NCBI GenBank assembly: GCA_021774735.1
Contig: JAJFIS010000033.1
Coordinates: 1-64,000 of the forward strand
DNA: 64,000 bases
Source of the DNA: Alphaproteobacteria bacterium
Lineage (GTDB): Bacteria; Pseudomonadota; Alphaproteobacteria; Sphingomonadales; Kordiimonadaceae
Direction of reading: 5' to 3'
In this document: positions 465 through 52,140 of the stretch, in pieces
Layout: the number at the start of each line of letters is the position of its first letter
How positions within the stretch are numbered: position 1 is the stretch's first letter
Position numbers and translations under genes: made by a program
The notes under the pieces: model-generated
Seen by the model: only the letters and a program-made list of their open reading frames with translations
Database searches by the model: none
Told to the model about the DNA's origin: nothing

Positions 465-468
465 GCAA

Positions 469-5707: not shown

Positions 5708-5829
5708 TTTGAAACTATTTTCAGTCAAGTGTTAAACAGAGATAAACCTTTGTGTACGCTTGGATAACAATAGTTCTCTGCTAACAAACTCGAGGCTGTC
5801 GTGGAAGCACATGCATTTATGCCCCAGCA

Positions 5830-7959: not shown

Positions 7960-7969
7960 CGCATGCAGT

Positions 7970-8008: not shown

Positions 8009-8097
8009 TTAATTATATCCCCTTATTTGGCAGCATGGACATTATAAGCAGCAGAGGTTAGATAAGCCCAAATGATGTTACAGGTGGACTGAAGCGC

Positions 8098-9306: not shown

Positions 9307-9325
9307 AGTGGATAATTTTATCAGC

Positions 9326-9832
9326 TTACTTAAAAAGCGGATGACTTTGCATTAATTCCATCATCACTTTTTGTCCCAATTCCATGCCATAAGCCCTGCC
9401 CGCTTTTTCAGCCTCTTTTTCCATTCCATCCATTTTTGGTAAGAGCAATAGCGCAGCTGGAGATTCGGAATCATGGGCAAGGGTCTTTATTTCTTCAAGT
9501 GTAAAGACCTTACGCAATTGAACAATCATCAAATTACTAAGGTTAATTTCCAAATCAGTTGTTATCCTAGAAATAAAAACATCAACGAAGTCTTCCACCA
9601 TGGCTGGCTTTGGATCTTTTCCAGACATTTTCACCGCTTGACCAATTTGCTCAATTAACACACCTCGCTGCTGGGCAAAGGCCTGGTGGAGAGCGGTAAT
9701 ACCTTCATCTAAAGCACCAGATTCGTGAAGAAATACGATGGCTAGCTCTTCAAACTCATCAGCGACAGCAGGACCGGTGATGGACGCAAAACCAACCACA
9801 TAAATAATAAAAAACTGCTTTAAATACCGCAT
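9326..9832 (-). CDS. Secreted DUF2059-like protein, paralogue 1
   Basis: A 168-residue protein with a signal peptide (MRYLKQFFIIYVVGFASITG, with a probable cleavage after AVA). The rest is helical, resembling small periplasmic proteins of the DUF2059 type. The start at 9832 is chosen because GGGAGAG lies six bases upstream; a longer frame to 9859 lacks one. The gene downstream in the same direction encodes a similar protein: both share a D/E-FEE-type start after the signal, an FLH.SGA...G...L pattern, a VDVF/VNSY central motif and the ending MMQSHPLFK or MMQTHPIFK. Function is unknown. Confidence 0.65.
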   Translation of the reverse strand: MRYLKQFFIIYVVGFASITGPAVADEFEELAIVFLHESGALDEGITALHQAFAQQRGVLIEQIGQAVKMSGKDPKPAMVEDFVDVFISRITTDLEINLSNLMIVQLRKVFTLEEIKTLAHDSESPAALLLLPKMDGMEKEAEKAGRAYGMELGQKVMMELMQSHPLFK

Positions 9833-9944
9833 AATATCTCTCCCAAAATAATTTAACAAAACGAACGGAATGATAAGATAACATTAGGCCTATACGCAAG
9901 TCTTCCATTAATAAATCGTTGTGCATCCCCTTGAAAATGGAGCC

Positions 9945-10439
9945 TTACTTAAAAATAGGATGGGTTTGCATCATCTCCGTGAGAACCTCGACCGCAATGC
10001 GCTTGCCCGCTGCCTTCCCTGCAACACCAATCGCCGCAGTAACGCGTTTCATTTTGCGCGCCAAGCTATCAAGTGCAGGCCCCCCTTGCGCATTCTCAAA
10101 AGCGGCGAGTTCCTCTGATGTTATGATTTTACGGTACTCCCCCACCATCAGCCCCGGAACATTAGCTTTCATCTGTTTCAGGACGCGGGGCAGATAACTG
10201 TTTACAAAGTCCTTAATTTGTCTCCGGCTGACGGACTTCCCTTTTTTCTTAAAATAAGACTTTACCTGCCGCGTGAGTGTCCTCTTGAGGGAACGCTCGC
10301 TTTCATCGAGGCCATTTACCGCGGCCTCTATGGCACCTGTCTGGTGCAGGAAGGCCAAGATACGATCATCAAAGTTATCGGCCTTCGATGGTGTAGTCAA
10401 AATAATGGCAAGAAAGAAACTTCTGGCAAGAATAAGCAT
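9945..10439 (-). CDS. Secreted DUF2059-like protein, paralogue 2
   Basis: A 164-residue exported protein with an N-terminal signal peptide ending near SKA. It is homologous along its length to the neighbouring 9326-9832 product (FLHQTGAIEAAVNGL, IKDFVNSYLPRVL, EEL AAFE block and terminal MMQTHPIFK). This marks a tandem duplication followed by divergence. The mature domain is more basic (many Lys/Arg, for example VKSYFKKKGKSVSRRQ) than paralogue 1, so the two have probably specialised. AGGGG sits seven bases before the ATG. Function is unknown. Confidence 0.65.
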   Translation of the reverse strand: MLILARSFFLAIILTTPSKADNFDDRILAFLHQTGAIEAAVNGLDESERSLKRTLTRQVKSYFKKKGKSVSRRQIKDFVNSYLPRVLKQMKANVPGLMVGEYRKIITSEELAAFENAQGGPALDSLARKMKRVTAAIGVAGKAAGKRIAVEVLTEMMQTHPIFK

Positions 10440-10492
10440 ATACGACCCCTAATATTGTTTACCTTCAAGCATGATAGTAAATTCACACTTCA

Positions 10493-11026
10493 TCAAAAGC
10501 TCAATTTTGATCCAGCTAACACGGTCAAAGCCCGTAGATATTCAACATCTGATGTTTTCCAAACTCTTTTAGTTCCTACGGTTTCACAGCAAATGACAGC
10601 TTGGGGCCTTAGATCTTTATAAATTACATAATCGAGCAGGGATTTGATGTTATTGGGCTCAAAATAGTCCTCAACTAGTTCTTTGGTTTGGTAATTTGTG
10701 TAAACATCATCGGCGAGAATACTGATGTTTTCGATAATAGAACTAAAGTATCTTGGATATTGTTGCTTTGTTAATTCAGCGCCTGACATATTTAACTTAT
10801 GGAATACATCAAAACTATAGGTGCAGGTTATTTTTGAAAGACTATTATCAAACGCCCAAATACTAATTAAAGTAACCTCAAGTTTTTCAACAATATCTTT
10901 TGCCATAGCATTGAATATTGTAGATGAGCACAGATTATTTTCTGCGGTGTATATTATATCTTGTAGATTTTTCACCGGTAATATCAGCCCCAAGTGGATA
11001 ATATTTATAATATAGTAAAACAACAC
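10493..11026 (-). CDS. Single-domain GAF protein
   Basis: A protein of up to 177 residues consisting of one GAF domain, a small-molecule or redox/heme sensing fold. The signature runs from VTLISIWAFD (strand 2) through ILADDVYTNYQTKEL to IKSLLDYVIYKDLRPQAVIC and CETVGTKRVWKTSDVEYL at the C-terminus, as in GAF modules of bacterial signalling proteins. No output domain is attached. The start is uncertain: GTG 11026 is the longest frame, and GTG 10975 removes a hydrophobic lead. The coding region is visibly more AT-rich than its neighbours, which may indicate transfer. The ligand and partner are unknown. Confidence 0.7.
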   Translation of the reverse strand: MLFYYIINIIHLGLILPVKNLQDIIYTAENNLCSSTIFNAMAKDIVEKLEVTLISIWAFDNSLSKITCTYSFDVFHKLNMSGAELTKQQYPRYFSSIIENISILADDVYTNYQTKELVEDYFEPNNIKSLLDYVIYKDLRPQAVICCETVGTKRVWKTSDVEYLRALTVLAGSKLSF

Positions 11027-11112
11027 CTATAAATTGTCAAAATAATCTCTTTCACGTGATTATTACTGGATAAGCTAGGGGAATACTCATGGCTTACCAT
11101 GCCGCTAATCAT

Positions 11113-11143
11113 AAAAAAGGGCCACACCGAGTGCAGCCCTTTT
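11113..11143 (-). terminator. Intrinsic terminator of rplM-rpsI
   Basis: Perfect 8-bp stem AAAAGGGC/GCCCTTTT with a 13-base loop. Read on the minus strand the stem runs into TTTTTTAT. It lies 31 bases after the rpsI stop codon. Confidence 0.85.
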
Positions 11144-11174
11144 GAATTTTGTAAGCTTTGAAAAGCTTCGCGGA

Positions 11175-11660
11175 TTAACGCTTCGAGAACTGGAAAGAAC
11201 GACGGGCTTTGGCTCTGCCGTATTTCTTACGTTCCACAACGCGGCTATCGCGGGTTAAGAAGCCAGCAGCTTTCAAGCCACCACGCAGGGTAGGTTCTGC
11301 CAGTTGCAGCGCTTTGGAGATGCCATGCTTAACCGCGCCAGCTTGACCGGACAATCCGCCACCTTTAACCGTTGCTATAACGTCATACTGGCCGGTGCGG
11401 TCAGAAATGCCGAAAGGTTGGTTAACGATCAAACGCAGAGTAGGACGGGCGAAATATGTTTCTTGGTCCCTGCCATTAACCGTGATCTTGCCTGAACCAG
11501 GCTTGATCCATACACGCGCAACGGCGTCTTTACGTTTGCCAGTGGCGTAAGTACGCCCTTGCGCATCACGAACAGGTTCGCGCACAACAGGTGCAGCTTC
11601 TCCGACAGCTTCAACAGAAGCAACGCCGGTAATTTCTTTAAGATCTTGCAAATCAGCCAT
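11175..11660 (-). CDS. rpsI: 30S ribosomal protein S9
   Basis: Component of the small ribosomal subunit whose C-terminal tail contacts P-site tRNA. The 161-residue product has the core [34 protein letters not shown], and [18 protein letters not shown]. It ends in the diagnostic [16 protein letters not shown]. An N-terminal extension of about 30 residues before the conserved core is normal in alphaproteobacteria. It lies five bases after rplM, forming the universal rplM-rpsI operon, and is followed by a strong terminator. Confidence 0.98.
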
Positions 11661-11665
11661 GATGC

Positions 11666-12124
11666 TTACCTTTTATTCTTTGGGTTCATGCCAGCCACAT
11701 CCAGAATTGCTGGGGACTGTGCTTCATGGGGGTGCTCGGTGCCAGCATAGATGCGCAGGTTACGCATTTGCTGACTGCCAAGAGGGCCAGAAGGGATCAT
11801 ACGCTTGATCGCACGTTCCAGAACACGCTCAGGGAAACGTCCGTCCAGCTCTTCACCAGCTGTAATTTCCTTGATACCGCCTGGGTGACCAGTGTGACGA
11901 TAAAATACTTTATCGGTTCGTTTCTTGCCGGTCAGCTTCACTTTTTCTGCGTTAATGATGACAACATGGTCGCCGCAATCCATATGTGGAGTATATGTCA
12001 CTTTAGTTTTTCCGCGCAGAACATTGGCTACAATCGCAGCAAGGCGGCCAAGCACAACGCCATCAGCGTCGACAATATGCCACTTTTTTTCAATCTCCGA
12101 CGCTTTTGCCGAATAGGTTTTCAT
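11666..12124 (-). CDS. rplM: 50S ribosomal protein L13
   Basis: Early-assembling large-subunit protein. The 152-residue sequence has [38 protein letters not shown] and the [20 protein letters not shown] block that define L13. It ends with [13 protein letters not shown]. First gene of the rplM-rpsI operon. The 264 bases upstream, up to the reductase gene on the other strand, are AT-rich and must carry both divergent promoters. I see no L13-leader structure there. Confidence 0.98.
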
Positions 12125-12388
12125 CGTTCAATTCCTTAGAACTAGGCTCAGGCCTTAACAAACGGGGCCTTTCATCCTTGGTGTGGCGCTGGTTATATAG
12201 ATGTTTTGCATCCTGTCAACAGTCAAAATAACACATAAAACAAAGAATAATACATAAAAACAATGCCTTAGAATATAGGTAATATAATACCCCATAATAT
12301 TTAGTAATAAATATGCTGGTATTTTCACCGATCAGCCTTAGTTTAAGTTTGAACGACTAATTTAGCACAATCAGTGAATGGAAATGAT

Positions 12389-13399
12389 ATGCAAAACCGG
12401 CAGATACTTCTTAAATCTCGGCCTGAAGGCTGGGTCACAAACGAAAATTTTGGCATCGACAATTGCGATGTTCCCGAGCTTAGTGAGGGGCAAGTTATGG
12501 TGCGGACGGTTTATCTTTCCGTTGACCCATACCTGCGGGGCCGCATGAATGATGCGAAAAGCTATGTCCCTCCTTTTGCCATTGGCGGTCCGATCGATAG
12601 CGGCATCGTTGGTCAAGTAATTGAAAGCCGGTTTGAGGGCCTAAGCGAAGGAGATTACGTCCTTGGACGCTTACCTTGGGCGCTCGTCTCCGCGACAAAT
12701 GGTAAGGAACTGTATAAGTTAGACCCTGACATTGCTCCCCTGTCCTATTATCTTGGTATTTTAGGGATGCCCGGCCAAACCGCATGGGTAGGTCTGAAAG
12801 CGATCGGTAACCTGCAAGAAGGCGAAAATGTATTTGTATCGGGCGCGTCTGGTGCAGTTGGCCAAGTCGTTGGTCAAATCGCCAAAAACATGGGTTGCCA
12901 TGTAGTTGGCAGTGCGGGCGGCGCTGATAAAGTAGCTTATTTACGGGAGTTAGGATTTGACGGCGCTATTGATTATAAAGCGACACCTAATCTGTTTAAA
13001 GCTGTTGCAGAATCCTGTCCGAATGGTGTTGATGTTTATTTCGAGAATGTTGGCGGCGATATTTTGGAAGCCGTTATTAATGTGCTCAATTTCAAAGCTC
13101 GCATTGCTGTTTGCGGTTATATTTCAGCCTATAACAGCACTCTTGCTGATATGCCCCCCGGTCCGCGTAACCTGCCGATATTAATTGGCCGTGGTGCCCG
13201 CATGGAAGGCTTCATTGTCAGCCAATATCCCAAAGAGTGTGCGGAATGGGTTCAAACTGGTGCGCAGTGGCTGAAAGAAGGCAAACTGAAATACCGTGAG
13301 ACGATTGTTGAGGGCTTAGAAAATGCCCCAAATGCCTTTGTTGATATGCTCAAGGGTAAAAATATGGGCAAAATGATCGTCAAAGTCGCTGACGAGTAA
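12389..13399 (+). CDS. NADP-dependent oxidoreductase, CurA/prostaglandin reductase-like (MDR superfamily)
   Basis: A 336-residue zinc-independent medium-chain reductase expected to reduce the double bond of alpha,beta-unsaturated carbonyls. It carries VDPYLRGRM near the N-terminus and the leukotriene B4 dehydrogenase-type nucleotide motif VSGASGAVGQVVGQIAKNMG (about 145-165). The C-terminus ends in the GKNMGKMIVKV signature of the CurA branch. No zinc ligands are visible, as usual for this branch. The ATG at 12389 is preferred to GTG 12374 because the usual family start is MxNRQ. A terminator follows directly. The physiological substrate is unknown. Confidence 0.88.
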   Translation: MQNRQILLKSRPEGWVTNENFGIDNCDVPELSEGQVMVRTVYLSVDPYLRGRMNDAKSYVPPFAIGGPIDSGIVGQVIESRFEGLSEGDYVLGRLPWALVSATNGKELYKLDPDIAPLSYYLGILGMPGQTAWVGLKAIGNLQEGENVFVSGASGAVGQVVGQIAKNMGCHVVGSAGGADKVAYLRELGFDGAIDYKATPNLFKAVAESCPNGVDVYFENVGGDILEAVINVLNFKARIAVCGYISAYNSTLADMPPGPRNLPILIGRGARMEGFIVSQYPKECAEWVQTGAQWLKEGKLKYRETIVEGLENAPNAFVDMLKGKNMGKMIVKVADE

Positions 13400-13406
13400 A
13401 AATACA

Positions 13407-13439
13407 AACAGCCCCTCGCTGCATTGAGGGGCTGTTTTT
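13407..13439 (+). terminator. Intrinsic terminator after the CurA-like gene
   Basis: 11-bp perfect stem AACAGCCCCTC/GAGGGGCTGTT, 8-base loop, followed by a T-run. A-rich sequence on the other side makes it potentially bidirectional, so it may also end the ctaA transcript. Confidence 0.85.
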
Positions 13440-13456
13440 AAAGCTGAGTTTGAATA

Positions 13457-14494
13457 TCACTTTGCACTTTTAGTGCGCTGCACATGCATCAAGTATATTG
13501 CCACGGCAAGCACCAGCACACCCCCACCCTGATGCGCTGTACCCCAAGTAACAGGCACCATTTTTACCAAAGCCGTTATCCCAAGGCCGACTTGCAGCAT
13601 AATAGCAGCAAGCAGGTAGCTGCTCGCTTTTTTAACCGCAGTGGCGGCACGCTTGCGGGCTTTGAAGAATAAAATCAACACCAAGGTGAACAACAGATAG
13701 GCCCCAATGCGATGATCAAATTGCACCGTGACACCGTTATCGGTAAAATTGCGCCATATGGGGCTTAACACCAGCATATCCGGCGGCACAAAGCTGCCGT
13801 CCATCAGTGGCCAGCTATTATAGAAATAACCAGCTTTCAGGCCTGCGACCAAGGCTCCCATTGCTAATTGCAAAACCAGCAAAAGCATAACCACATGGGT
13901 CAAAATCTTTATGGGCTTGGCAATTGTGCTAGGATGAGGTCGAACTAAATCTAAGGCAGTCCAGAAAGTAGCAGAAAACAATAGCAGCGCTAACATAAGA
14001 TGCGCCGTCAACCGGTAATGGCTCACCTCAGGTTCAGCCACCAAGCCCGACTTGACCATATACCAGCCGAGCAAACCTTGCAGGCCGCCGAGGACAAAAA
14101 GCACGACCAAGCGGAGTTTATAGCCTGCCGGAATACGGCCCTTCGCCCAAAAGAAAAGCATTGGCACCAGAAAGGCAACGCCGATTAGACGACCAAGCAG
14201 ACGGTGTGCCCATTCCCACCAATATATGCCTTTAAATTCAGCGAGGCTCATGCCAATATTTTTTAACTTATATTCGGGTGACGCTTGATAATCAGTAAAT
14301 TCTTGCAGCCATGCTGCATCGCTAAGCGGTGGCAGAAAACCCGTAACGGGTCGCCAATTCACCATCGAAAGGCCTGATTCCGTCAGCCTTGTGGCCCCGC
14401 CAACCATGACCATAGCAAAAACCAAAAAGGCGATGAAGAACAGCCAAGTAGCTACAGCAATTCGATCTTTATCGTTGGTTTGGTTGAAATACAA
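13457..14494 (-). CDS. ctaA: Heme A synthase, COX15/CtaA type 2
   Basis: Inner-membrane monooxygenase that converts heme O to heme A for aa3-type cytochrome oxidase. The 345-residue protein has eight predicted membrane helices and the four heme-ligand histidine motifs EWAHRLLGR, SHYRLTAHL, FDHRIGAYLLF and AHQGGGVLVL. It also has the N-terminal signature GGATRLTESGLSMVNWRP, typical of the mitochondrial COX15 branch. The start appears to be TTG at 14494, preceded by GAGAG; it lies 14 bases after der. No cytochrome oxidase genes are in the window. Confidence 0.95.
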   Translation of the reverse strand: MYFNQTNDKDRIAVATWLFFIAFLVFAMVMVGGATRLTESGLSMVNWRPVTGFLPPLSDAAWLQEFTDYQASPEYKLKNIGMSLAEFKGIYWWEWAHRLLGRLIGVAFLVPMLFFWAKGRIPAGYKLRLVVLFVLGGLQGLLGWYMVKSGLVAEPEVSHYRLTAHLMLALLLFSATFWTALDLVRPHPSTIAKPIKILTHVVMLLLVLQLAMGALVAGLKAGYFYNSWPLMDGSFVPPDMLVLSPIWRNFTDNGVTVQFDHRIGAYLLFTLVLILFFKARKRAATAVKKASSYLLAAIMLQVGLGITALVKMVPVTWGTAHQGGGVLVLAVAIYLMHVQRTKSAK

Positions 14495-14508
14495 AGCTGG
14501 TCTCTCAC

Positions 14509-15960
14509 TTATTTTTCGCGGCGCTTGCGTCTGCCATCATAAGGATTATCAGTTTTTCTAAAATATACCCTTATCGGCACTGCGGGCATCTCAAAATCCC
14601 GACGCAACTCATTTTCCAAATAGCGTTTATAGCTCTCGGGGATATCCGCAGGGCGGTTACAAAACAGCAAGAATGTCGGTGGCCGAGTTTTTATCTGTGC
14701 GCCGTAACGCACTTTAATGCGCCGACCAGAAACCGCTGGCGGCGGGTGCTGTTCCATCGTATCCGCCAGCCATTCATTGAAAATTGCTGTCTTGATGCGG
14801 GCGTTCCAGGTTTCATAAGTCTCGGCTACCGCTGGCATCAAATACTGGGTACCCTGCCCAGTTAGACCCGATATATTGACAATGCGAATGCCCTTCATCT
14901 GCGGAAAAGAACGAGTGAGCGTATCGCGTAATTGCCGCTGGGCTTTCAAGCGATCTTCCACCACGTCCCATTTGTTGAGGGCGATAACCAATGCCCTGCC
15001 TTCACGGGCGCAAAGTTCCGCTATTTTTAAATCCTGCTTTTCAATGCCAAGTTCGGCGTCCAACAACAACACCACAACTTCGGCAAATTGAATGGCCCGC
15101 AGGCTATCTGCCACTGATAGCTTTTCCAGCTTTTCCGTAATCCGTGCCTTTTTGCGAATACCCGCCGTGTCAAACAGCTTAACCGGCATGTCTTCCCACT
15201 GCCAATTAACGGAAATACTATCGCGCGTCAGGCCAGCCTCTTCGCCTGTAATCAAACGGTCGTCACCAATGAGATAATTGATCAGGGTAGATTTGCCTGC
15301 ATTGGGCCGGCCAACAATTGCCAGCCGCAATGGCCTATCATCACTGATGTCTTCTTGGGTGTCTTCAAACTCAAAGTCCAAGTCGCCCTCTTCCGGGTCA
15401 CCGTCACGGCGATTAGATAATTTCTCGCCCCCGTCATCCTCACCTGCGTATGGGTCTATACCAGCCCCTTGCAGGCCTTCCACCATTTGCTGGTACAAAT
15501 CAGCCAAACCTTCACCGTGCTCCGCTGACAGGGGTATGGGATCACCGAGCCCAAGGCCGTAAGCCTCATAAATGCCATCAACATGGAATTTACCTTCACA
15601 TTTATTAGCAGCCAAAATGACAGGCTTTTTCATTTTACGAAGGATAGCAGCGAAATGCTCATCCAATGGCGTAATGCCGGCGCGGGCATCATATAGCATC
15701 AGGATAATATCAGCTTCTTCCATCCCAACTTCGGTCTGGCGGCGCATACGCCCTGATAGGCTTTCAATGTCACCCTCTTCAAAGCCGGCAGTGTCAAATA
15801 TTGTGAACTTCAGATCAGATAGCGTTGCTTCACCTTCCCGGCGGTCACGGGTAACGCCCGGCGTATCGTCAACGATAGCCAGTTTCTTACCCGCCAATCG
15901 GTTAAAAAGTGTTGATTTGCCCACATTGGGGCGCCCAACAATAGCTAGGGTAAAGGTCAT
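14509..15960 (-). CDS. der: Ribosome-associated GTPase Der (EngA)
   Basis: Essential double-GTPase for 50S subunit maturation. The 483-residue protein has two tandem G domains with P-loops GRPNVGKSTLFN (residues 8-19) and GRPNAGKSTLIN (about 218), switch motifs DTPGVTRDR/DTAGFE and DTAGIRKKARI, and base-recognition NKCE and NKWD. A C-terminal KH-like domain ends in NPYDGRRK. An acidic linker (DGDPEEGDLDFEFEDTQED) separates the G domains. It follows the bamB-like gene by 27 bases and precedes ctaA. The yfgM-bamB-der order is the same as in E. coli. Confidence 0.97.
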   Translation of the reverse strand: MTFTLAIVGRPNVGKSTLFNRLAGKKLAIVDDTPGVTRDRREGEATLSDLKFTIFDTAGFEEGDIESLSGRMRRQTEVGMEEADIILMLYDARAGITPLDEHFAAILRKMKKPVILAANKCEGKFHVDGIYEAYGLGLGDPIPLSAEHGEGLADLYQQMVEGLQGAGIDPYAGEDDGGEKLSNRRDGDPEEGDLDFEFEDTQEDISDDRPLRLAIVGRPNAGKSTLINYLIGDDRLITGEEAGLTRDSISVNWQWEDMPVKLFDTAGIRKKARITEKLEKLSVADSLRAIQFAEVVVLLLDAELGIEKQDLKIAELCAREGRALVIALNKWDVVEDRLKAQRQLRDTLTRSFPQMKGIRIVNISGLTGQGTQYLMPAVAETYETWNARIKTAIFNEWLADTMEQHPPPAVSGRRIKVRYGAQIKTRPPTFLLFCNRPADIPESYKRYLENELRRDFEMPAVPIRVYFRKTDNPYDGRRKRREK

Positions 15961-15987
15961 CTCATTCTCTCATTAAGCGCTTGGTGC

Positions 15988-17340
15988 TTATCGGTAAGCA
16001 ACCAAGTTTCCGCTGTCATCAAGATAAACAAGCGTATTGTCAACAACTATCGGTGCTGTTGAAGAACCATTTGCTAGTTTTTCAGCTGAAAGCACTTCAC
16101 CGGTATAGGGTGATATAGACAGCATATACCCATGCGATGAAGTAACTAGCAGACGGTCACCCGCTAATATTGGGCCATTCCATTTGATCAGGCCTCGACG
16201 TTTATCTTGATCTTCAAAGCGTTGCACTTGGGTTACCCAGCGGATGCGGCCATCGCTAAGCTGAATGCAGGCGATCTCACCTTCAATTGTAACCACAAAG
16301 GCATAATTACCTGCAATGAGAGGTGTTGTAACACTGGCAACATCGCCTTCCCATGATCGCTCACCCGTGCGCATATCAATCGCGACCATCCGCCCAGCAT
16401 GAGAAACAGCATAAGCACGACCACGGTCAATAACCGGGTGACCATCCACGTCTGCCAGTGAGGCAAGAGGCGTTAAGCGCTTAGAACTGGTCAGCGAATC
16501 TTGCCACAAAACCCGTCCATTGGACGTTACCATGGCGATAAGTTCACCGCTAGACAGGGCAAGCAAGACAACACCTGCATCCACGGCAGGGGATGCTGCG
16601 CCAAGCATACTGGCGGTTTCTGTAATGCCTACTTGATCCCATACTTCTTCACCAGTATCGGCATTTAATACAATAATCTGGTTATCTTGGGTAATGGTAA
16701 AAACCTTACCTTCAGCAACAGTTGGGGCACCGCGCAGGGGTATTTTGCCCGCATGGCGCCACATTTCACGGCCATTGTCAGCGTCCAGCGCCACAGTAAA
16801 GCCATAGCCGGTTGTGGCGTAGACGGTACCATTGTCATAGGCGAGGCCACCACCATAACCCACTTTGCTACGTTCATCAGGGTCATCAAGGGTTACTGAC
16901 CAACGTGTGCCACCACTTGCCAATGTAACCGCAGAAACCTGTGCATTAACGTCCATAGCATAAACAACACCACCCGCCGAAATGGGGCCTGAAACCATAC
17001 GTCTGTATTTCGTATTGCCGTCACCAATGCTGGTTGACCATGACTTGGACAGCCGGTCACCAATGGTCAGATGGTAAATCGCATGCGTAGCGTTACCGCC
17101 TGCTTGGGTCCAGCTTTGGTTCGTATAAGCCCTAGGCAGTCGAACAGCTTGACCCGCAATAACAGCGTCCGCCTCTAAAATACGCGAAGAACTTAAAATC
17201 TCTAGCCGGTCTTTGCCTTCATCATCATAGGCATTTTTGTCTTTACCAGAGCCCTTAAACCATGAACATCCAGCCAAAACCAGCACCAGAGAAATAGTTA
17301 CAAAGCCACGTAGAACTGAACTTGCTGACATATTCATCAT
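15988..17340 (-). CDS. BamB-like PQQ-repeat beta-propeller lipoprotein
   Basis: A 450-residue predicted lipoprotein. A hydrophobic signal ends in the lipobox LAGC, and eight-bladed propeller repeats with PQQ-type endings follow (VYAMDVNAQVSAV, GTVYATTGYGFTVALDADNG, GRAYAVSHAGRMVAIDMRTG, LLVTSSHGYMLSISPYTG). Position between a YfgM-like gene and der is as for BamB, the accessory lipoprotein of the outer-membrane beta-barrel assembly machine. The family role is inferred from fold and synteny. Its ATG overlaps the stop codon of the upstream gene (CAATGATG), implying coupled translation. Confidence 0.88.
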   Translation of the reverse strand: MMNMSASSVLRGFVTISLVLVLAGCSWFKGSGKDKNAYDDEGKDRLEILSSSRILEADAVIAGQAVRLPRAYTNQSWTQAGGNATHAIYHLTIGDRLSKSWSTSIGDGNTKYRRMVSGPISAGGVVYAMDVNAQVSAVTLASGGTRWSVTLDDPDERSKVGYGGGLAYDNGTVYATTGYGFTVALDADNGREMWRHAGKIPLRGAPTVAEGKVFTITQDNQIIVLNADTGEEVWDQVGITETASMLGAASPAVDAGVVLLALSSGELIAMVTSNGRVLWQDSLTSSKRLTPLASLADVDGHPVIDRGRAYAVSHAGRMVAIDMRTGERSWEGDVASVTTPLIAGNYAFVVTIEGEIACIQLSDGRIRWVTQVQRFEDQDKRRGLIKWNGPILAGDRLLVTSSHGYMLSISPYTGEVLSAEKLANGSSTAPIVVDNTLVYLDDSGNLVAYR

Positions 17341-18077
17341 TGGTTGCCCTCGCTTATAGTTGAACTGGTAGCATTTGTATCATCTGCCACGACACCCTCA
17401 GCTGCGGTTTCAGCTTTTACTCGGGCTTCCACATAAGCCAGCATTTTACTTGCTCGCTCACTGATAGTTGCTGGTACATCTGTTGCTAGGGCGAGCGAAG
17501 TATATTTCGCCATAGCGTCATCCAACAGGCCCTCTTCCACGTCAATCAGCGCCAGAAGTTCTGTTGCTGAATGGTGCCAAGGTTTGCCAATACCACTAAG
17601 CAGACTTAACCTTCCGCGCGCTGCTGCATAGTCAGACTTTTGCACATAGATCATTGCTGTTTGTATTTGCGCAAGCCCCTTCAGGTCTGGGTCGCCGCCC
17701 GCTTGCGCTGCAATAGCGTCAAAGGCTGCGATAGCGCCGTCCATGTCACCCGCATCCAATTTTGCTGCTGCTAATTGCATACCCGCTAGGCTGCCATAGC
17801 CACCTTTTAAGGCGCTAACGCCGTCAGTCCATATAACCACCGGATCCTTTGCGGCATCTTTTGCTGCGTCAACCACTGCTTGGTAGGTCGTGCTGGCTTC
17901 TTCTTGTGTGGTTTTAAGATACTCGTCCCAGCCTTGCCTTCCGGCCACCACCAAAACGACCGTCACAGCTACACCGATTATATATTTGCCGTAAGATTTC
18001 CATAGCGCTGTCAGCTGCTCTTTGCGCAGCTCATCGTCAACCTCTTGGATCATTGCGTCATTATTAGGGTCTGACAC
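17337..18077 (-). CDS. YfgM-like membrane-anchored TPR protein
   Basis: A 246-residue protein with a cytoplasmic N-terminal segment rich in Glu/Asp (VDDELRKEQLTALWKSYGKY), one membrane helix (IIGVAVTVVLVVAGRQGW, about 34-51), and a periplasmic helical-repeat region. That architecture equals the TPR_21/YfgM family, an ancillary factor of the Sec translocon and periplasmic chaperones in E. coli. It begins the transcription unit yfgM-bamB-der-ctaA and overlaps the bamB-like gene by four bases. Assignment rests on architecture plus gene order; primary sequence similarity to YfgM is modest. Confidence 0.8.
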   Translation of the reverse strand: MSDPNNDAMIQEVDDELRKEQLTALWKSYGKYIIGVAVTVVLVVAGRQGWDEYLKTTQEEASTTYQAVVDAAKDAAKDPVVIWTDGVSALKGGYGSLAGMQLAAAKLDAGDMDGAIAAFDAIAAQAGGDPDLKGLAQIQTAMIYVQKSDYAAARGRLSLLSGIGKPWHHSATELLALIDVEEGLLDDAMAKYTSLALATDVPATISERASKMLAYVEARVKAETAAEGVVADDTNATSSTISEGNQ

Positions 18078-18236
18078 CTGTTAACTCCTAAATATTATTC
18101 TTAGCGAATTTTCTTCTAATTTGGCCGGTACCATAGACAAAGGTCTTGTGCAAAGCAAACACGAAGGCAGCATTTATACGCTTATTTGCATTAGTTTTTG
18201 CGGCAAAATTCAGGCAAGGCCATTTTGAAGGCAAAT

Positions 18237-19085
18237 TTAATTCTTTTTCATCTTATATGTATGGTCATCACTGGGGAATTTACGGGCGCGAACATCCGCT
18301 GCATATTGCTCAATTGCGGCCGCGATACCCGTGCCAATTTCGGCGTAACGCTTGACAAATTTCGGGTTGAAAGAAAATAAACCAAGCATATCTTCGGTGA
18401 CCAATATTTGACCGTCGCACTCAGCCGATGCCCCAATACCAATGATTGGGTTGGAAACTTCCTTGCTTAATTTGACCGCCAAAGGCTCTGCCACCCCTTC
18501 CAAAACTGTTGCAAAAGCGCCCGCCGCTGCGATTGCGTGGGCATCATCAATGATAGGCTGCCATTCATCTTCACTGCGCCCGTGGGCACCGTAACCCCCA
18601 TAAACATTCACGCTTTGTGGCCTAAGCCCCACATGGCCAAGCACCGGAATACCGCGCTCGACGAGAAACTTGACGGTGTCCGCCATCTCTTTGCCGCCTT
18701 CCAGCTTAACTGCACCGGCACCGGTTTCTTGCAAAACGCGGGCGCAATTCCGGAAGGCTTGCTCACGAGATTCTTCATAAGTGCCAAAGGGCATATCCAT
18801 AACCACCAAGGCCTTACGCGCCCCCCGCATAACCGCTTTACCGTGTGCAATCATCATATCCAGCGTAACGCCCACAGTGGATTCCATACCGTAAAGCACC
18901 ATACCAACCGAATCACCAACCAACAGAAAATCGCAGTAGTCATCAAGTCGCGCCGCCATGGGGGTAATATAAGCGGTCAGCGATACAATAGGCTCCTTGC
19001 CTTTGCGCAGGGCTATGTCGCGCGCGGTACGACGGCGCACAACAGGCGATAACTTGATATCTTCATTTTTATTGGTCGTTGACAT
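18237..19085 (-). CDS. panB: 3-methyl-2-oxobutanoate hydroxymethyltransferase
   Basis: Transfers a hydroxymethyl group from methylenetetrahydrofolate to 2-oxoisovalerate, the first committed step of pantothenate and coenzyme A synthesis. The 282-residue TIM-barrel protein has the metal-binding DSVGMVLYG, the DMPFGTYE loop, the KLEGG motif, and [11 protein letters not shown]. It also has the catalytic Glu region FATVLEGV and [14 protein letters not shown]. The ATG at 19085 has AGGAAG six bases upstream. panC is not adjacent. It lies 160 bases before the yfgM-bamB-der group on the same strand. Confidence 0.97.
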
Positions 19086-19173
19086 AAGGGCTTCCTAGTC
19101 GAATTACAGAATATTCCCTCCCCTGTAACATGAGGGCCCAAGCGAGACAACGCACTAACGACAAGTTGATAGT

Positions 19174-19563
19174 TTAGCTGGACGAGGAAGGGACGCTGAC
19201 CAGAACTCCGTCGCCGTCATAAGTGCGGCCTGTGACCAGCATATACATGACATAAAGCGAATGAAGGGCATCCAAAACAAGCAGGAAAATACCCAACATC
19301 ACCAAGTTTGGTTCTTGGGCGGAAAATATTAGGTAAAAACTGCTGATGAATAAGCCGAGATCAATAAGACCATGCAACCAGTTTTTCAGATAAAAATGAT
19401 GTAGGCCTAACACCCCAAAAACGCCACACAGGCTAAGCGCAACACCAAAGCTTTTATTGCTCATAGGCGGCGCGATTGAGGCAAATTCATATCCACAATT
19501 ACGACATGAAGGCCGGCCATATATAACCTCAGCGCCACATGCCCGACAAAATTTATCTGCCAT
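19174..19563 (-). CDS. Zinc-ribbon plus TM2-like membrane protein A
   Basis: A 129-residue membrane protein. Residues 6-23 form a short zinc ribbon (CRACG ... CRNCG). Then come three to four hydrophobic segments, the first pair containing GVFGVLGLHHFYLKNWLHGLIDL, the G-x-H-x-F-Y motif of TM2 domains. The ATG at 19563 has AGGAGA eight bases upstream. The next gene upstream encodes a second protein with the same order of domains, so this looks like a divergent paralogue pair separated by a terminator. Function is unknown; TM2/zinc-ribbon proteins are widespread and uncharacterised. Confidence 0.75.
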   Translation of the reverse strand: MADKFCRACGAEVIYGRPSCRNCGYEFASIAPPMSNKSFGVALSLCGVFGVLGLHHFYLKNWLHGLIDLGLFISSFYLIFSAQEPNLVMLGIFLLVLDALHSLYVMYMLVTGRTYDGDGVLVSVPSSSS

Positions 19564-19588
19564 TATCACATCTCCTGCTCATGCGAAC

Positions 19589-19610
19589 AAAAGGGGCCTA
19601 AACCCCTTTT
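19589..19610 (-). terminator. Intrinsic terminator between the TM2 genes
   Basis: Perfect 8-bp stem AAAAGGGG/CCCCTTTT with a 6-base loop, 22 bases after the stop codon of the upstream TM2 gene. It also precedes the ribosome site of the downstream one, so read-through may be limited. Confidence 0.7.
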
Positions 19611-19631
19611 ATAATCATATTCTCGAAATAT

Positions 19632-19928
19632 TTAAGACTTGATTGGCTTGCCTTCACCGTCGGTGAAGTTGCCAATAGCAATGACGATAAAGTCAATCAA
19701 CGTCCAAATTCCAAGGCCGCCCAATGTTAGCAGCATTAAAATTCCTGTACCAATCTTACCAACAAAAAAGCGGTGAACACCAATTCCACCTAGGAAAAAG
19801 CACAGTAATAATGTTGCAACATAGCTTTTTTCTGACCGGTCACCCATCTGCGGTGCGCCGCAATTCGGACAAGCCGCTGCATTTTCTGCAACTTCTTTTC
19901 CGCAAGCCGTACAATGAACCATTGTCAT
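19632..19928 (-). CDS. Zinc-ribbon plus TM2-domain membrane protein B
   Basis: A 98-residue protein: zinc ribbon CTACG ... CPNCG (residues 6-23), then a canonical TM2 domain (LLLCFFLGGIGVHRFFVGKIGTG to LGIWTLIDFIVI) of two membrane helices. The ATG at 19928 with AGGGG seven bases upstream is preferred to the longer frame reaching 19970. It is closer to the TM2 consensus than its neighbour at 19174. Location in the inner membrane is predicted; function is unknown. Confidence 0.78.
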   Translation of the reverse strand: MTMVHCTACGKEVAENAAACPNCGAPQMGDRSEKSYVATLLLCFFLGGIGVHRFFVGKIGTGILMLLTLGGLGIWTLIDFIVIAIGNFTDGEGKPIKS

Positions 19929-20027
19929 AAAATAACCCCTCTCTATATTTAAAAAAATAGACTGCCGCACGAGGCTGTTGAAATCAACAAGTTTCGAATT
20001 CTATGTTGGTCATGCGACGGCTAAATT

Positions 20028-46507: not shown

Positions 46508-47716
46508 ATGCTGGGTATATTCAGCCACTTTAACAAGTTGGTCTGCCTCATAATTTTACTAATTTCGGCTTCAATTGCGACCTACGCAGAGGATGGGCTG
46601 GAAATTTCGGCCGTACGCTTGGGCGAGAGCGGTGGCCTTACCCGCTTTGTGCTTGAAATTAACAATAGTGAAAAACCCCGGGTGTTTGTTCTCGCTAACC
46701 CTTACCGTGTGGTTATTGATATGTCGGCGGCCAAATGGTCGGCGAGCGATAGTATGGACGGCAAAGGTGTTATTGAGCGCTTTCGCCATGGCCTGTTCCG
46801 CGATGATGTTTATCGCATCGTGCTGGACCTGAAAGCACCTGCGGTCATCCACCGTTCCTTCACCTTGGCGGGCAAAGGTGGAAATTCTCCCCGTTTTGTG
46901 CTGGATTTAAAACCCACGGGCGACGCTGCTTTCAAAAAGCAAGTGGCCTCTACGTCTAAAATGCGCGTGCCCGTTCGTAAAAGGGTAACAACTTCCAAGC
47001 CTGTGGTTAAAAAGAAGACGCCTGGCAAACGCATGGTGGTTATCGACGCTGGTCACGGCGGCAATGACCCTGGCAATTTGGGCTCCATCGGCGTCCATGA
47101 AAAAATCATAACCCTAAAAATTGCCAAATTAATGCGCGATAGCCTGAATGCCACCGGCCGCTATGACGCGCGGTTAACCCGCAGCAAAGATATTTATATA
47201 AATCTGGCGGAGCGCTACCGCATTGCTTTGCGGCTTGGGGCTGATATTTTTATCTCAGTGCACGCGGACAGTCATGCTAACAAGAAAATACGTGGTGCCA
47301 CAGTTTATACCTTGTCTGAAAAAGCTTCCGATGAAGAAGCCGCAAAGCTGGCGGCGCGGGAAAATAAATCAGACCTACTAGCGGGGATTGAGCTATCTGA
47401 GGTCGACGATGATGTTTCTGGTATCCTGATTGAGCTTGCACAGCGCGAGACTATGAATTTTTCAGCCCAATTTGCTGAGCTGCTGGTGCCAGAGATGAAA
47501 AGCCAGGTGCGGATGGTGAAGAACCCTCACCGGAGTGCAAAACTTAGGGTCCTGTCATCGCACGAGATGCCATCGGTGTTGTTGGAGAGCGGTTTCTTGT
47601 CCAATCGCCAAGACGCGCGCATGCTCAACAGTGTCGCAGGGCGTAAAAAAATCTCCCTTGCAGTTCGCCGCGCTCTTGACCGTTATTTCGCCCAACTCAG
47701 CGCCATGCAGCAGTAG
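46508..47716 (+). CDS. amiC: N-acetylmuramoyl-L-alanine amidase, AmiC type
   Basis: Splits septal peptidoglycan during cell separation. The 402-residue protein has a signal peptide (about 27 residues, ending TYA), an AMIN domain (about 30-135, ending FVLDLKPTG) for septal targeting, a basic Lys/Arg/Pro linker, and an Amidase_3 domain from about 178. The zinc-binding motifs are VVIDAGHGGNDPG (His), the Glu in VHEKIITL, and ISVHADSH (His). LLESGFLSN carries the catalytic Glu. It is normally followed directly by mrcA in alphaproteobacteria; here a hipBA cassette intervenes. Confidence 0.95.
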   Translation: MLGIFSHFNKLVCLIILLISASIATYAEDGLEISAVRLGESGGLTRFVLEINNSEKPRVFVLANPYRVVIDMSAAKWSASDSMDGKGVIERFRHGLFRDDVYRIVLDLKAPAVIHRSFTLAGKGGNSPRFVLDLKPTGDAAFKKQVASTSKMRVPVRKRVTTSKPVVKKKTPGKRMVVIDAGHGGNDPGNLGSIGVHEKIITLKIAKLMRDSLNATGRYDARLTRSKDIYINLAERYRIALRLGADIFISVHADSHANKKIRGATVYTLSEKASDEEAAKLAARENKSDLLAGIELSEVDDDVSGILIELAQRETMNFSAQFAELLVPEMKSQVRMVKNPHRSAKLRVLSSHEMPSVLLESGFLSNRQDARMLNSVAGRKKISLAVRRALDRYFAQLSAMQQ

Positions 47717-47755
47717 GTACAGAAGTTGAGTAAGGGTAATGGACTAGGGACTAAC

Positions 47756-47788
47756 CCCATTATTTTTCATCTATTATGCGCTAAAGCT
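47756..47788 (+). repeat. Left 33-bp direct repeat flanking hipBA
   Basis: This 33-base segment recurs at 49501-49533 with one mismatch (position 6, T here, A there). It starts 40 bases after the amiC stop codon. It includes TTATGCGC, identical to the XerC-arm core of the chromosomal dif site read on this strand. Flanking bases differ between copies, so the match ends sharply. Confidence 0.9.
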
Positions 47789-47832
47789 AATGTTTTTTGC
47801 AGTAGTTGCTAAAATATTGTTTTTCCATACCA

Positions 47833-47884
47833 GATAATATATTATCCACAATGAGAGAAAAATAATTATATGGATAATATATTG
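47833..47884 (+). promoter_or_regulatory. Candidate HipB operator (two related palindromic sites)
   Basis: GATAATATATTATC (47833-47846) is a perfect 14-bp palindrome upstream of hipB. The sequence GATAATATATTG recurs at 47873-47884, 40 bases on (about four helical turns), overlapping the hipB start codon. HipB of E. coli binds TATCC/GGATA-type palindromes in its own promoter; here TATCC and GGATA also occur at these two sites. Autorepression is therefore likely, by inference. Confidence 0.55.
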
Positions 47885-48196
47885 GCTATTAATTTAATTT
47901 CCCCAAATGAACTACAAATGAAAATGGCACGATCTTTTAAAAAGAACAGGTTGGCAATGTCCTTAACGCAACAAGGTTTAGCCAATCGCTCTGGAGTAAG
48001 TTTAGGCTCGCTCAAACGGTTTGAGTCTTCGGGAAAGATTGCCTTTGAAAGCTTGTTGAAATTAGCTTTAGTTCTTGATCTTTTAGATGGTTTTAACAAA
48101 ATCACCCAAATGGAAAATTATACTACTGATTATAGCCTTGATGAAATCATCAAAAGGGGCACTAAAAAGGCTAAAAGCAGGGGATCGCTTACATGA
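47870..48196 (+). CDS. HipB-like antitoxin, XRE-family helix-turn-helix
   Basis: A 108-residue DNA-binding protein. Residues about 20-75 form an XRE helix-turn-helix (FKKNRLAMSLTQQGLANRSGVSLGSLKRFE), and the basic C-terminus (IIKRGTKKAKSRGS) is probably flexible. It overlaps the hipA-like gene by four bases (ATGA), as expected of a type II antitoxin made before its toxin. It should bind its own promoter at the palindromes around 47833-47884 and neutralise the kinase. The start is ATG 47870, although its ribosome site is weak. Confidence 0.85.
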   Translation: MDNILAINLISPNELQMKMARSFKKNRLAMSLTQQGLANRSGVSLGSLKRFESSGKIAFESLLKLALVLDLLDGFNKITQMENYTTDYSLDEIIKRGTKKAKSRGSLT

Positions 48197-49425
48197 GTTA
48201 TACCGCGACAGAGCTTATATCTGTATATAGCCATCACGGTGGTGAGACGATGCTTGTAGGGCGGTTAGCCAATCAAGAAAGGCGCGTTTTGTTTGAGTAT
48301 GACCCCACATTTTTGATACAAGCTATTCAACTTTCCCCATTCATGGTGCCATTAAAGCCGGGCGTACAACAGTGCGATGACCACATATTTGATGGTTTGT
48401 TTGGTCTGTTCAATGACAGTTTACCTGATGGATGGGGGCGATTACTGCTCGACCGCGTTGTTGAGGCTGCGGGTATTAACCGCAGGCAGATTTCAGCACT
48501 TGATCGCTTGGCTTACGTGGGGAATGCTGGAATGGGAGCATTGTCTTATGTACCAAATTTTTCAACATATGCGGAGGATATCCCACCATTACAGTTGGAT
48601 AAACTATTCGAAGATGCCAAGGTCGTTCTTACTGGCGACGGCGAAAGTGTGATAAAAGAATTGCTGCAATTAAGTGGTTCGTCAGCTGGCGCAAGGCCGA
48701 AAATTGTCGCGCAAGTGAGCAAGGATAAAAAATCTATCATTCATGGTCGTAATAGGCTGCAAGAGGGCTATTCTCATTGGATGGTTAAATTTGCCGCGTC
48801 AAATGACCCAAGCGATATTGGTGCTATTGAATATGCATATGCCCAAATGGCGCAAGAAGCGGGCATAGTAATGCCTACGGTTCATCTGTTTGAACAGTCA
48901 GGAGGAGCAGGCTACTTCGGCGTGGAACGTTTTGACAGGCTTGGAGACATTCGGGTTCATACACACAGCTTATGTGGCCTAATTCATGCCGATTTCCGCC
49001 GCCCGAGTTTAGACTATGAAATGGTATTAAAAGTTACGCAACTATTGAGCAGAAACATGGTTGAGGTGAGAAAGGCATTCAGGCTCGCCTGCTTCAATGT
49101 TTTTGCCCATAACCGGGATGATCATAGCAAAAATTTTTCCTATATTTTGAACTTGCAAAATGAATGGCAGTTATCACCCGCTTATGATCTAACATTTTCT
49201 TATGGCCCAGCGGGTGAACATAGCACAATGGTGATGGGGGAAGGTAAATATCCCTCGCAAGACCATTTGCAAAAATTGGCGGCTCGCTTTGGTATAGGTA
49301 AATCAGACGCTAAAAATATTATTGATCAAGTGTATATAGCGGTAATAAACTGGCTTGAACACGCAAGGAACGCCGGTGTTACGCAAAAAAGCCAACAAAA
49401 TATTGCCTCGTTAATCAGTAAGTGA
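48193..49425 (+). CDS. HipA-like serine/threonine kinase toxin
   Basis: A 410-residue type II toxin of the HipA family. An N-terminal HipA_N domain (about 20-110) precedes the kinase core. The autophosphorylation/Gly-rich loop is LSGSSAGARPKIVA. The ATP-binding Lys is in HWMVKFAA, the catalytic loop is NRDDHSKNFSYI, and the metal-binding Asp is in LSPAYDLTFSYG. All catalytic elements look intact. Classical HipA phosphorylates glutamyl-tRNA synthetase and causes persistence; other family members have different targets, so the substrate here is unknown. The gene pair is more AT-rich than amiC and mrcA around it. Confidence 0.9.
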   Translation: MSYTATELISVYSHHGGETMLVGRLANQERRVLFEYDPTFLIQAIQLSPFMVPLKPGVQQCDDHIFDGLFGLFNDSLPDGWGRLLLDRVVEAAGINRRQISALDRLAYVGNAGMGALSYVPNFSTYAEDIPPLQLDKLFEDAKVVLTGDGESVIKELLQLSGSSAGARPKIVAQVSKDKKSIIHGRNRLQEGYSHWMVKFAASNDPSDIGAIEYAYAQMAQEAGIVMPTVHLFEQSGGAGYFGVERFDRLGDIRVHTHSLCGLIHADFRRPSLDYEMVLKVTQLLSRNMVEVRKAFRLACFNVFAHNRDDHSKNFSYILNLQNEWQLSPAYDLTFSYGPAGEHSTMVMGEGKYPSQDHLQKLAARFGIGKSDAKNIIDQVYIAVINWLEHARNAGVTQKSQQNIASLISK

Positions 49426-49500
49426 ACAGAAAACCTGCACTATATTTTGGCTTCTATCGAAAAGAAAAGCACTTCACTTTGTCTATGAACTGGATCAGAT

Positions 49501-49533
49501 CCCATAATTTTTCATCTATTATGCGCTAAAGCT
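49501..49533 (+). repeat. Right 33-bp direct repeat flanking hipBA
   Basis: The second copy of the 33-base repeat (32/33 identical to 47756-47788, same orientation). It lies 75 bases after the hipA stop codon and 78 bases before the mrcA start. The cassette between the two copies is 1712 bp. Confidence 0.9.
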
Positions 49534-49611
49534 GGACTTTGCCTTGTCAAAACCATATTTTTCGGCCAAATCATTTGAGCAAGGTCCAATCACGGTCTTT
49601 TAAGGGTAACA

Positions 49612-52140
49612 ATGGCTGAAAAGCTGAGAAAATTTGGCAAAAAAGGCAAGGGCAGCAAAGCGCGTAAACCCCGCAAGTGGCTGCGGCGCTTGCTTGTGTG
49701 GGGCAGCATAAGTGCGGTCACCGGGCTGATTGTTGCCGTTGGTGCCGTCTTTTGGGCTTTCGCCTATTATGGTAGTGACCTGCCGGACTATCGCCACCTG
49801 AAGAAATATGAGCCCGCCGTCATAACCCGCACCCATGCGGGGGATGGGTCTCTGTTGACCGAATTTGCGCGGGAAAAGCGTCTGTTCATGCCAATCGACA
49901 GCATGCCGCAGGAGCTGTTGCAGGCTTTCATCTCTGCTGAAGACAAAAATTTTTACGACCATACAGGGCTCGATTATTTAGGCATTGTGCGCGCGGCCTT
50001 GACCAATGTCGCCAATGTGACGCGCGGGCGGCGCTTGGTCGGTGCCTCGACCATCACGCAGCAAGTGGCGCGGAACTTCCTGCTGACGTTAGATCAGAAA
50101 TTCGACCGTAAGATCAAGGAAATGATCATCACGCTGCGCATGGAGCGGGCTTTCTCAAAGGATGAAATATTAGAGCTTTACCTGAATGAAATCTATTTAG
50201 GCGGCGGGTCTTACGGCGTTGCATCGGCGGCGCTGCATTATTTTAACAAAAGCTTGGACGAACTGACCATCGCTGAGATGGCCTATCTTGCTGCATTGCC
50301 CAAGGGCCCGAATAATTATCACCCGGTGCGCAAGAAAGCCCGCGCCATTGGCCGGCGCAATTGGGTTCTGTCGCGCATGTTGGTGCTGGGCTATATTGAC
50401 CAAGCAACCCATGATGTAGGTGTGGCGGAAGATTTACTGATGCGGGCCCGCAGTGGCCACGCGCTGTTTCGCGGTGAATATTTCGGCGAGACTGTGCGCC
50501 GCAAAATCCAAAAAACTTATGGCAATGCATCCCTTTATGAAGGGGGCCTGAGCGTTCATACCTCATTAGAGCCACGCTTGCAGGCAGCAGCGGAAGTTGC
50601 CCTGCGCCGGGGTTTGCACGCCTATGACCGCCGTCACGGCTGGCGCGGCCCGCTTGGACATATAGCAATCGGTGATGATTGGGCCAAGAGCTTAGCCAAG
50701 TCTAACTATGCGCTCGGCATTACTGAATGGGAAAGCGCGTTAGTGCTGAATTTAGCGGAAGAGGGTGCCCTTATCGGTTTTAAGGATGGCAGCTTTGGTT
50801 TCATTCCGCTGGCAGAAGTGACATGGGCGCGGAATTGGCTGGTTGGTGAGCGGATTGGCAGCAAGGTTAAAGATATAGGCCAAGTGTTAAATATTGGCGA
50901 TATTATAGTGGTGGAGCACTTAGCCAAAGCCGCGCGGGTTGATATTACAAGCTTGGTTTTTGAGGACATTGATTTTGAACCCATGGCAGCGGTTTATGCG
51001 CTGCGGCAAATTCCGGCAGTCGAAGGTGCGCTAGTGGTTATGGATCCGCACACAGGCCGGGTGCTGGCTATGGTTGGCGGCTTTGACTATCAGACAAGCC
51101 AGTTTAACCGCGCAGAGCAGGCCGAGCGGCAACCGGGCTCCGCTTTCAAGCCCTTTGTTTATACGGCAGCGCTGGAAAGTGGCTTCACACCATCGAGCTT
51201 GGTGTTGGACGCCCCCTTTGTTATCGATCAAGGCGAGGGTCTCGGCAAATGGAAGCCCAAGAACAGCTCCAACAAGGTTTACGGGCCAAGTACACTGCGT
51301 TTGGGTTTGGAAAAGTCCCGCAATCTGATGACCGTGCGTCTTGCACAAAATATCGGTATGCGCAAAATTATTAATCACGCGGGTAATTTTGGCTTAGCTA
51401 AAAACATGCAGCCCCATTTGGCGATGAGCTTGGGCGCAGGGGAAGTGAGTTTGTTGCAACTAACGGCGGGTTATTCAATGCTTGTTAACGGCGGTAAAGA
51501 AATAATTCCAAGCCTTATCGACCGAGTGCAAGACCGGCGCGGCAAGACAATTTACCGCCATGATGAGCGCCGTTGTCTCGACTGCGATCAAACATGGGAC
51601 CTGCATACAAGCGAGCCAACGCTGAGTGACAATCGCAAGCAAGTGGTGGACAGTCGCACAGCCTACCAAATTGTTTCTATGCTGGAAGGCGTTGTACAAA
51701 GGGGAACTGGGCGGAAAATACGTGTACTTGGTCGCCCACTCGCCGGTAAAACCGGCACCACTAATGATGCAGCCGACGCATGGTTTGTTGGCTTCTCTCC
51801 CGATTTGACGGTCGGTGTTTTTGTCGGCTTTGACCGGCCACGCTCCCTTGGGCGCTTTGAAGAAGGCTCCAGCGTTGCGGTGCCAATATTCCGCGACTTC
51901 ATGAAAGTAGCCTTAAAAGATGCCCCTAAAATTCCTTTTCGCATTCCCGAAGGCGTACGCTTAGTGCGTATCAACGCCAAAACCGGCTTGCCCGCGCGCA
52001 TTGGTGACAAAAACGTCATTTTGGAAGCTTACATCCCCGGCACCGAACCCCGGGTCGGGCAGCTCGCAGTACTTGACGGCAGCTTGCCAATCGGCGAGAA
52101 GGAAGGTTCGGTTCGTCGTGGCTCGGGTGGAATTTACTGA
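49612..52140 (+). CDS. mrcA: Penicillin-binding protein 1A
   Basis: Bifunctional peptidoglycan glycosyltransferase and DD-transpeptidase of the inner membrane. The 842-residue protein has a basic cytoplasmic N-terminus, one membrane helix (about 30-52) and a GT51 domain with the catalytic Glu in SAEDKNFYDHTGLDY plus VGASTITQQVARNF. A PBP1A-type insertion (about 320-440) precedes the transpeptidase. The transpeptidase has the SxxK nucleophile in PGSAFKPF, SRN in LEKSRNLMT, and the KTGT box in AGKTGTTNDAADAWFVG. The next gene is prfB, the usual neighbour. Its promoter region contains the right hipBA repeat. Confidence 0.96.
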   Translation: MAEKLRKFGKKGKGSKARKPRKWLRRLLVWGSISAVTGLIVAVGAVFWAFAYYGSDLPDYRHLKKYEPAVITRTHAGDGSLLTEFAREKRLFMPIDSMPQELLQAFISAEDKNFYDHTGLDYLGIVRAALTNVANVTRGRRLVGASTITQQVARNFLLTLDQKFDRKIKEMIITLRMERAFSKDEILELYLNEIYLGGGSYGVASAALHYFNKSLDELTIAEMAYLAALPKGPNNYHPVRKKARAIGRRNWVLSRMLVLGYIDQATHDVGVAEDLLMRARSGHALFRGEYFGETVRRKIQKTYGNASLYEGGLSVHTSLEPRLQAAAEVALRRGLHAYDRRHGWRGPLGHIAIGDDWAKSLAKSNYALGITEWESALVLNLAEEGALIGFKDGSFGFIPLAEVTWARNWLVGERIGSKVKDIGQVLNIGDIIVVEHLAKAARVDITSLVFEDIDFEPMAAVYALRQIPAVEGALVVMDPHTGRVLAMVGGFDYQTSQFNRAEQAERQPGSAFKPFVYTAALESGFTPSSLVLDAPFVIDQGEGLGKWKPKNSSNKVYGPSTLRLGLEKSRNLMTVRLAQNIGMRKIINHAGNFGLAKNMQPHLAMSLGAGEVSLLQLTAGYSMLVNGGKEIIPSLIDRVQDRRGKTIYRHDERRCLDCDQTWDLHTSEPTLSDNRKQVVDSRTAYQIVSMLEGVVQRGTGRKIRVLGRPLAGKTGTTNDAADAWFVGFSPDLTVGVFVGFDRPRSLGRFEEGSSVAVPIFRDFMKVALKDAPKIPFRIPEGVRLVRINAKTGLPARIGDKNVILEAYIPGTEPRVGQLAVLDGSLPIGEKEGSVRRGSGGIY

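Follow-up and report, generated by a model that had tools for sequence, protein, structure and literature searches.

The closest described counterparts of the locus presented here are the pdif/dif modules that Acinetobacter has on plasmids and chromosomes, which it resembles in being a small, recombinase-free accessory unit between dif-like sites, and in which toxin-antitoxin cargo is common. One of these modules carries an Xre regulator together with a hipA-like toxin (PMC7885321), and chromosomal dif modules situated away from dif are already known in Acinetobacter (PMC6449649, PMC12907356). A second likeness is to the IMEX found at dif (CTX-phi, VGJ-phi, TLC-phi and the gonococcal genetic island), which have no integrase of their own and stand between direct dif-like flanks, and among which long or altered central regions occur. 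With its 12-bp centre, the attP1 site of CTX-phi does not serve as an Xer substrate in double-stranded form (PMC4246890); long centres and poor XerD arms are frequent in phage dif-like sites generally (PMC3025954). The 11-bp central region of the locus is shared with difSL of the XerS system (PMC5357621). In E. coli, cells that have lost the terminus are poisoned by the hipBA located there (PMC7326373).

In the window, by which we mean the whole 64-kb stretch of DNA that was analysed, a hipB/hipA pair stands between amiC (46508..47716, plus strand; N-acetylmuramoyl-L-alanine amidase, Pfam Amidase_3 2.9e-44 and AMIN 4.1e-8) and mrcA (49612..52140, plus strand; class A penicillin-binding protein with Transgly, Transpeptidase and PCB_OB domains), in the gene order rne-amiC-mrcA-prfB; on this order and its gene content we assign the organism to the alphaproteobacteria. 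Beyond the amiC stop, 39 bp with no recognised counterpart in relatives (47717..47755) lead to the first of two 33-bp direct repeats (47756-47788 and 49501-49533, both on the plus strand), which are identical at 32/33 positions, the sole mismatch being T at 47761 against A at 49506. The copies are 1745 bp apart from start to start and enclose 1712 bp; a window of 64 kb would by chance hold about 3e-10 such pairs at most 3 kb apart. The ends of the repeat are sharp, because the flanks beyond the 33 bp are not more similar to each other than shuffled sequence, and on the same comparison the repeats were rejected as the remains of a larger, diverged duplication. The original prediction of same-orientation repeats with one mismatch, enclosing a 1712-bp cassette free of transposase and recombinase, was thus confirmed, only hipB and hipA being found inside. 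Its further view, that a discrete hipBA unit splits two normally adjacent genes, is supported by the adjacency of amiC and mrcA in relatives. The GC content of the cassette is 41.6% against 47.0% for the window, a value as low being reached by just 1% of 1712-bp windows.

The repeat resembles the dif site of the host chromosome. This dif (ATTTCCCATAATATAAATTATGCGCTAAAT, arms ATTTCCCATAA-TATAAA-TTATGCGCTAAAT, with a 6-bp spacer) was located at C41:21674-21703, where the polarity of the KOPS-like motif GGGNAGGG switches from 7:0 to 1:5 and the GC skew changes sign; the dif pattern was found in 18 of 60 relatives from the family and order, with a single occurrence in each genome. The repeat can be written as CCCATAA-TTTTTCATCTA-TTATGCGCTAAA-GCT, that is, the inner XerD arm of dif followed by the XerC arm with a spacer of 11 bp and not 6, and both copies read D-to-C on the plus strand, the native arm order of dif. 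In copy 1 the XerD-arm-like segment (TAACCCCATTA, 47752-47762) agrees with the host's own dif at 6/11 positions and the XerC-arm-like segment (TTATGCGCTAAAG, 47774-47786) at 12/13, on either side of the spacer at 47763-47773; the corresponding segments of copy 2 are AGATCCCATAA (49497-49507, 9/11) and the same XerC-arm-like sequence (49519-49531, 12/13), with the spacer, identical to that of copy 1, at 49508-49518.

When both dif arms were scored at every position of the window, on both strands and with spacers of 2-20, copy 2 was the best dif-like site (21/24); the null maximum was 19 in 40 simulations, and under a matched-locus null a score of 21 was attained by 0 of 3000 simulated stretches of 75 bp. 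Copy 1 scored 18/24 and alone would not stand out. This fixed-spacer scan was relied upon since a gapped alignment of dif against the window proved too weak a test, its second score being 31 against 32 for copy 2. The sequence behind that second score, a gapped match of AGGTAATATAATACCCCATAATATTTAGTAATAAATATG (12276-12314) to dif plus its left flank, is probably a chance product of AT-rich DNA. The genome-wide tests, made on an assembly of 2.78 Mb in 51 contigs (100% complete), consisted of pattern searches only: CATAAT...TTATGCG with spacers of 2-20 was found at seven sites, of which dif and copy 2 alone match the longer CCCATAAT...TTATGCGCTAAA, and other XerC-arm matches in the genome stand without a XerD arm. 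On contig C51 a cluster that by appearance is phage tail- or gene transfer agent-like (L222) lies near ATTATGCGTTAAAT, a site with XerC-arm-like sequence. Outside the conserved TTATGCG core, bases 8-12 of the XerC arm (CTAAA) are matched 5/5 between the repeat and the host's own dif; these bases vary among the difs of relatives, none of which matches all five, and therefore the site probably arose in the present lineage or a close one, from its dif.

Genes for XerC (contig C14) and XerD (C32) are present in the host, together with a further, phage-like tyrosine recombinase (C43), and the module itself has no recombinase; it is an accessory unit that, by sequence, carries XerC/XerD-type arms on both sides. 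Because the flanking 33-base sequences look like a XerC/XerD site, the unit probably travels by host recombination, and we consider it probable that the hipBA cassette is a dif module which entered the chromosome via dif-like sites and the host XerC/XerD. The best reading of the locus is an IMEX-like chromosomal dif module, in direct orientation and away from dif, in an alphaproteobacterium. The original prediction had left open that the 33 bp is an unusual target-site duplication, which was not borne out, the repeat holding both arms of the host's own dif in the right order and orientation. A target duplication through an unknown transposition mechanism would explain the sharp direct repeats at both cassette ends; it is nevertheless hardly credible, since 33 bp is far beyond usual target-site duplications, the repeat has dif architecture and a transposase is absent. 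Terminal inverted repeats were not noticed at the cassette ends either, and the features of an insertion sequence were missing, with only hipB and hipA inside and no inverted ends among the inverted repeats detected.

Judged by domain content, the unit carries a HipA kinase toxin of the ordinary kind, paired with HipB as antitoxin and repressor. The hipB gene (47870..48196, plus strand) encodes a 108-aa protein with an XRE-type HTH (Pfam HTH_3 2.6e-5) and overlaps by 4 bp the hipA gene (48193..49425, plus strand), whose 410-aa product has both the N-terminal coupling domain (Couple_hipA 1.4e-16) and the C-terminal kinase domain (HipA_C 2.8e-48, 164.8 bits) and matches HipA/HipT among PDB entries; a HipA kinase with a coupling domain, preceded and overlapped by an HTH antitoxin gene, is the composition of a type II HipBA system. 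Below-cutoff matches of HipB were to couple_hipB and to RstR, and the similarity to the RstR repressor family of CTX-phi (3.4e-6) is probably a general HTH likeness. An inverted repeat of 13 nt, 100% complementary (AATATATTATCCA / TGGATAATATATT, 47836..47883), overlaps the start codon of hipB and, judged from the biology of HipB, is likely the HipB operator; the hipBA unit has a putative promoter/operator region of its own. It could be asked whether the 33-bp repeat is instead a duplicated regulatory element (operator or promoter) from the hipBA region, dif-like only through its CATAAT...ATTATG dyad, as such a dyad could bind a dimeric regulator, and hipB begins 81 bp beyond copy 1 and mrcA 78 bp beyond copy 2. 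This is very improbable: the dyad is broken in copy 1 (CATTAT), the outer XerC bases CTAAA match specifically the host's own dif, and the inverted repeat at the hipB start is the better operator candidate.

In the genome itself just the two copies of the repeat were found, with no third at up to 3 mismatches, and neither the repeat nor the module was found in 29 family genomes, genome_contigs or the viral contigs. Consequently the repeat is not the common dispersed element that would have spoken against the original prediction, and recurrence at a further location or host, a usual feature of dif modules, was not seen in those collections. That prediction had also expected one copy of the repeat in relatives free of hipBA. 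The amiC-mrcA gaps of 29 relatives have neither hipBA nor the repeat nor any dif-like site, so that 0/29 carry a copy and the search for an ancestral single site ended with none; as the relatives belong to other genera or families, with mrcA about 63-69% identical in the other genera, the test is weak and not fatal. In most relatives the interval between the amiC stop and mrcA has a motif like TTGCCTTATCC..GTCACAATT, placed right behind the stop or past a short variable stretch. In the mrcA upstream region (49537..49611, plus strand) the sequence TTTGCCTTGTCAAAACC, next to copy 2, resembles by eye this post-amiC motif (TTGCCTTATCCACGTCACAATT), which suggests that copy 2 abuts the old chromosome. 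Taken with the 29 gaps without a site, it seems either that everything from the 39 bp through copy 1 and the cassette to copy 2 was inserted, or that a site pre-existed in the genus.

Eight relatives carry mrcA and dif together on a single contig, and there dif is located downstream, on the strand of mrcA (113-199 kb away in six family members; about 269 kb and 24 kb away in the two that belong to another family), thus in those relatives the sites have dif-like polarity; in the genome studied here dif is on C41 and the module on C27. Within the window, positions 1-20000 have negative GC skew, and every KOPS-like motif in about the first 19 kb is on the minus strand (7:0), with mixed or plus-strand motifs beyond, a change that possibly marks a rearrangement breakpoint. 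A search for long-spacer sites in 299 genomes of the order gave 41 single sites against roughly 15 control matches, scattered and with unrelated spacers, and since no spacer is shared by a pair a wider class is not supported. We hold it unlikely that alphaproteobacterial cassettes would form a general kind of one-way dif module, capturing genes through host Xer at long-spacer sites, unable to release them and carrying toxin-antitoxin cargo. Flanking dif-like repeats are not a habit of the HipA family either, none being present around 15 of the closest HipA relatives in genome_contigs or at the family and order HipA loci checked, and four Acinetobacter plasmid hipBA loci have no pdif within about 4 kb at up to 5 mismatches. 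A match to the HipA of the cassette was obtained in just 12 of the 60 relatives.

Six HipA_C proteins are encoded in the 2.78-Mb genome (on C22, C25, C30, C14, C1 and C27). The hipBA on C22 (4186-5637, minus strand) is bounded by direct repeats of 78 nt with 83% identity (L041, 4108-4185 and 5824-5901), which represent the 3' end of a TPR-repeat-like gene and are not dif; they are 1716 bp apart from start to start, compared with 1745 bp at amiC-mrcA. A repeat-bounded hipBA need not, therefore, mean Xer, and hipBA units may also integrate by some other route. Similarly spaced as it is, this second unit in the same genome favours the explanation that one RecA-dependent or illegitimate crossover integrated a circular hipBA molecule through a short matching stretch that it carried, the likeness to dif being incidental. 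We nevertheless judge this quite improbable at amiC-mrcA, because chance homology does not favour a near-complete dif-like site and 33 bp is short for RecA exchange.

Under the dif-module reading, a circular hipBA molecule with a dif-like site would recombine with such a site on the chromosome through the host XerC/XerD, leaving one site on each side of hipBA in direct orientation. The exchange would fall inside the 33-bp identity, in which case the circle would have held the better site (left half of copy 2 and right half of copy 1, XerD arm 9/11), and the empty chromosome would have kept the poorer one (XerD arm 6/11). With 11 bp between their arms, XerC and XerD would be offset from their normal register by about half a helical turn, so that excision may now be rare, XerC-only or lost. 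The stretched middle of the site may lock the module in place, to which hipBA addiction could add further retention. The precedents of CTX-phi attP1, of phage sites and of the XerS spacer likewise suggest a module that is active at a low rate, XerC-only or locked, and continued movement is in doubt since the 12-bp spacer makes attP1 unsuitable as a double-stranded substrate.

It should be emphasized that the case concerns one instance, that the 11-bp spacer in both copies and the poor XerD arm (6/11) of copy 1 speak against a dif module, and that the genomes and contig collections searched gave neither an empty site nor a further location or host. These features would also suit a fossil, in which the repeats were once Xer/att sites of a larger IMEX, phage or plasmid, a deletion left hipBA behind and the long spacer marks an inert site: spacer, weak arm and missing signs of mobility in the genomes and contigs searched all agree with it, as do the longer centres and poor XerD arms often found in phage dif-like sites (PMC3025954). 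We regard this as somewhat unlikely, since the copies differ at one base, which suggests recent or gene-converted sites, and the unit closes tightly on hipBA with remnant genes absent.

Compared with the known systems, the dif module proposed here differs from each in several respects. Acinetobacter modules have 28-bp sites with a 6-bp spacer, typically inverse, whereas the hipBA cassette has an 11-bp spacer and direct repeats, resides in an alphaproteobacterial host and has a site resembling the host's own dif; it thus misses three usual features of dif modules, namely the 6-bp spacer, the inverse site orientation and recurrence elsewhere. The IMEX insert at chromosomal dif, unlike the cassette, which lies at another place and is free of replication, phage and transfer genes. 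The difSL/XerS system of streptococci and lactococci works with a single recombinase and other arm sequences, while the present genome has XerC and XerD. In E. coli K-12 MG1655 (L240; dif 4751-4778, hipA 4855-6177) the end of hipA is 76 bp from dif, comparable to the 71 bp that separate hipA from the XerD arm of copy 2, but there a single functional dif with a 6-bp spacer stands in the opposite orientation relative to hipA, the HipA proteins are only distantly related, and the parallel is suggestive only. Situated on an alphaproteobacterial chromosome, the locus would extend the range of dif modules beyond Acinetobacter and its relatives; with a spacer nearly twice the normal, it would allow one to ask how much separation of the XerC and XerD arms recombination still tolerates, and whether modules can be locked in by lengthening the spacer. 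Toxin-antitoxin dif modules being already known from Acinetobacter, what makes the hipBA cassette a variant is the length of its spacer, the direct orientation of its sites, its lineage and the origin of the sites.
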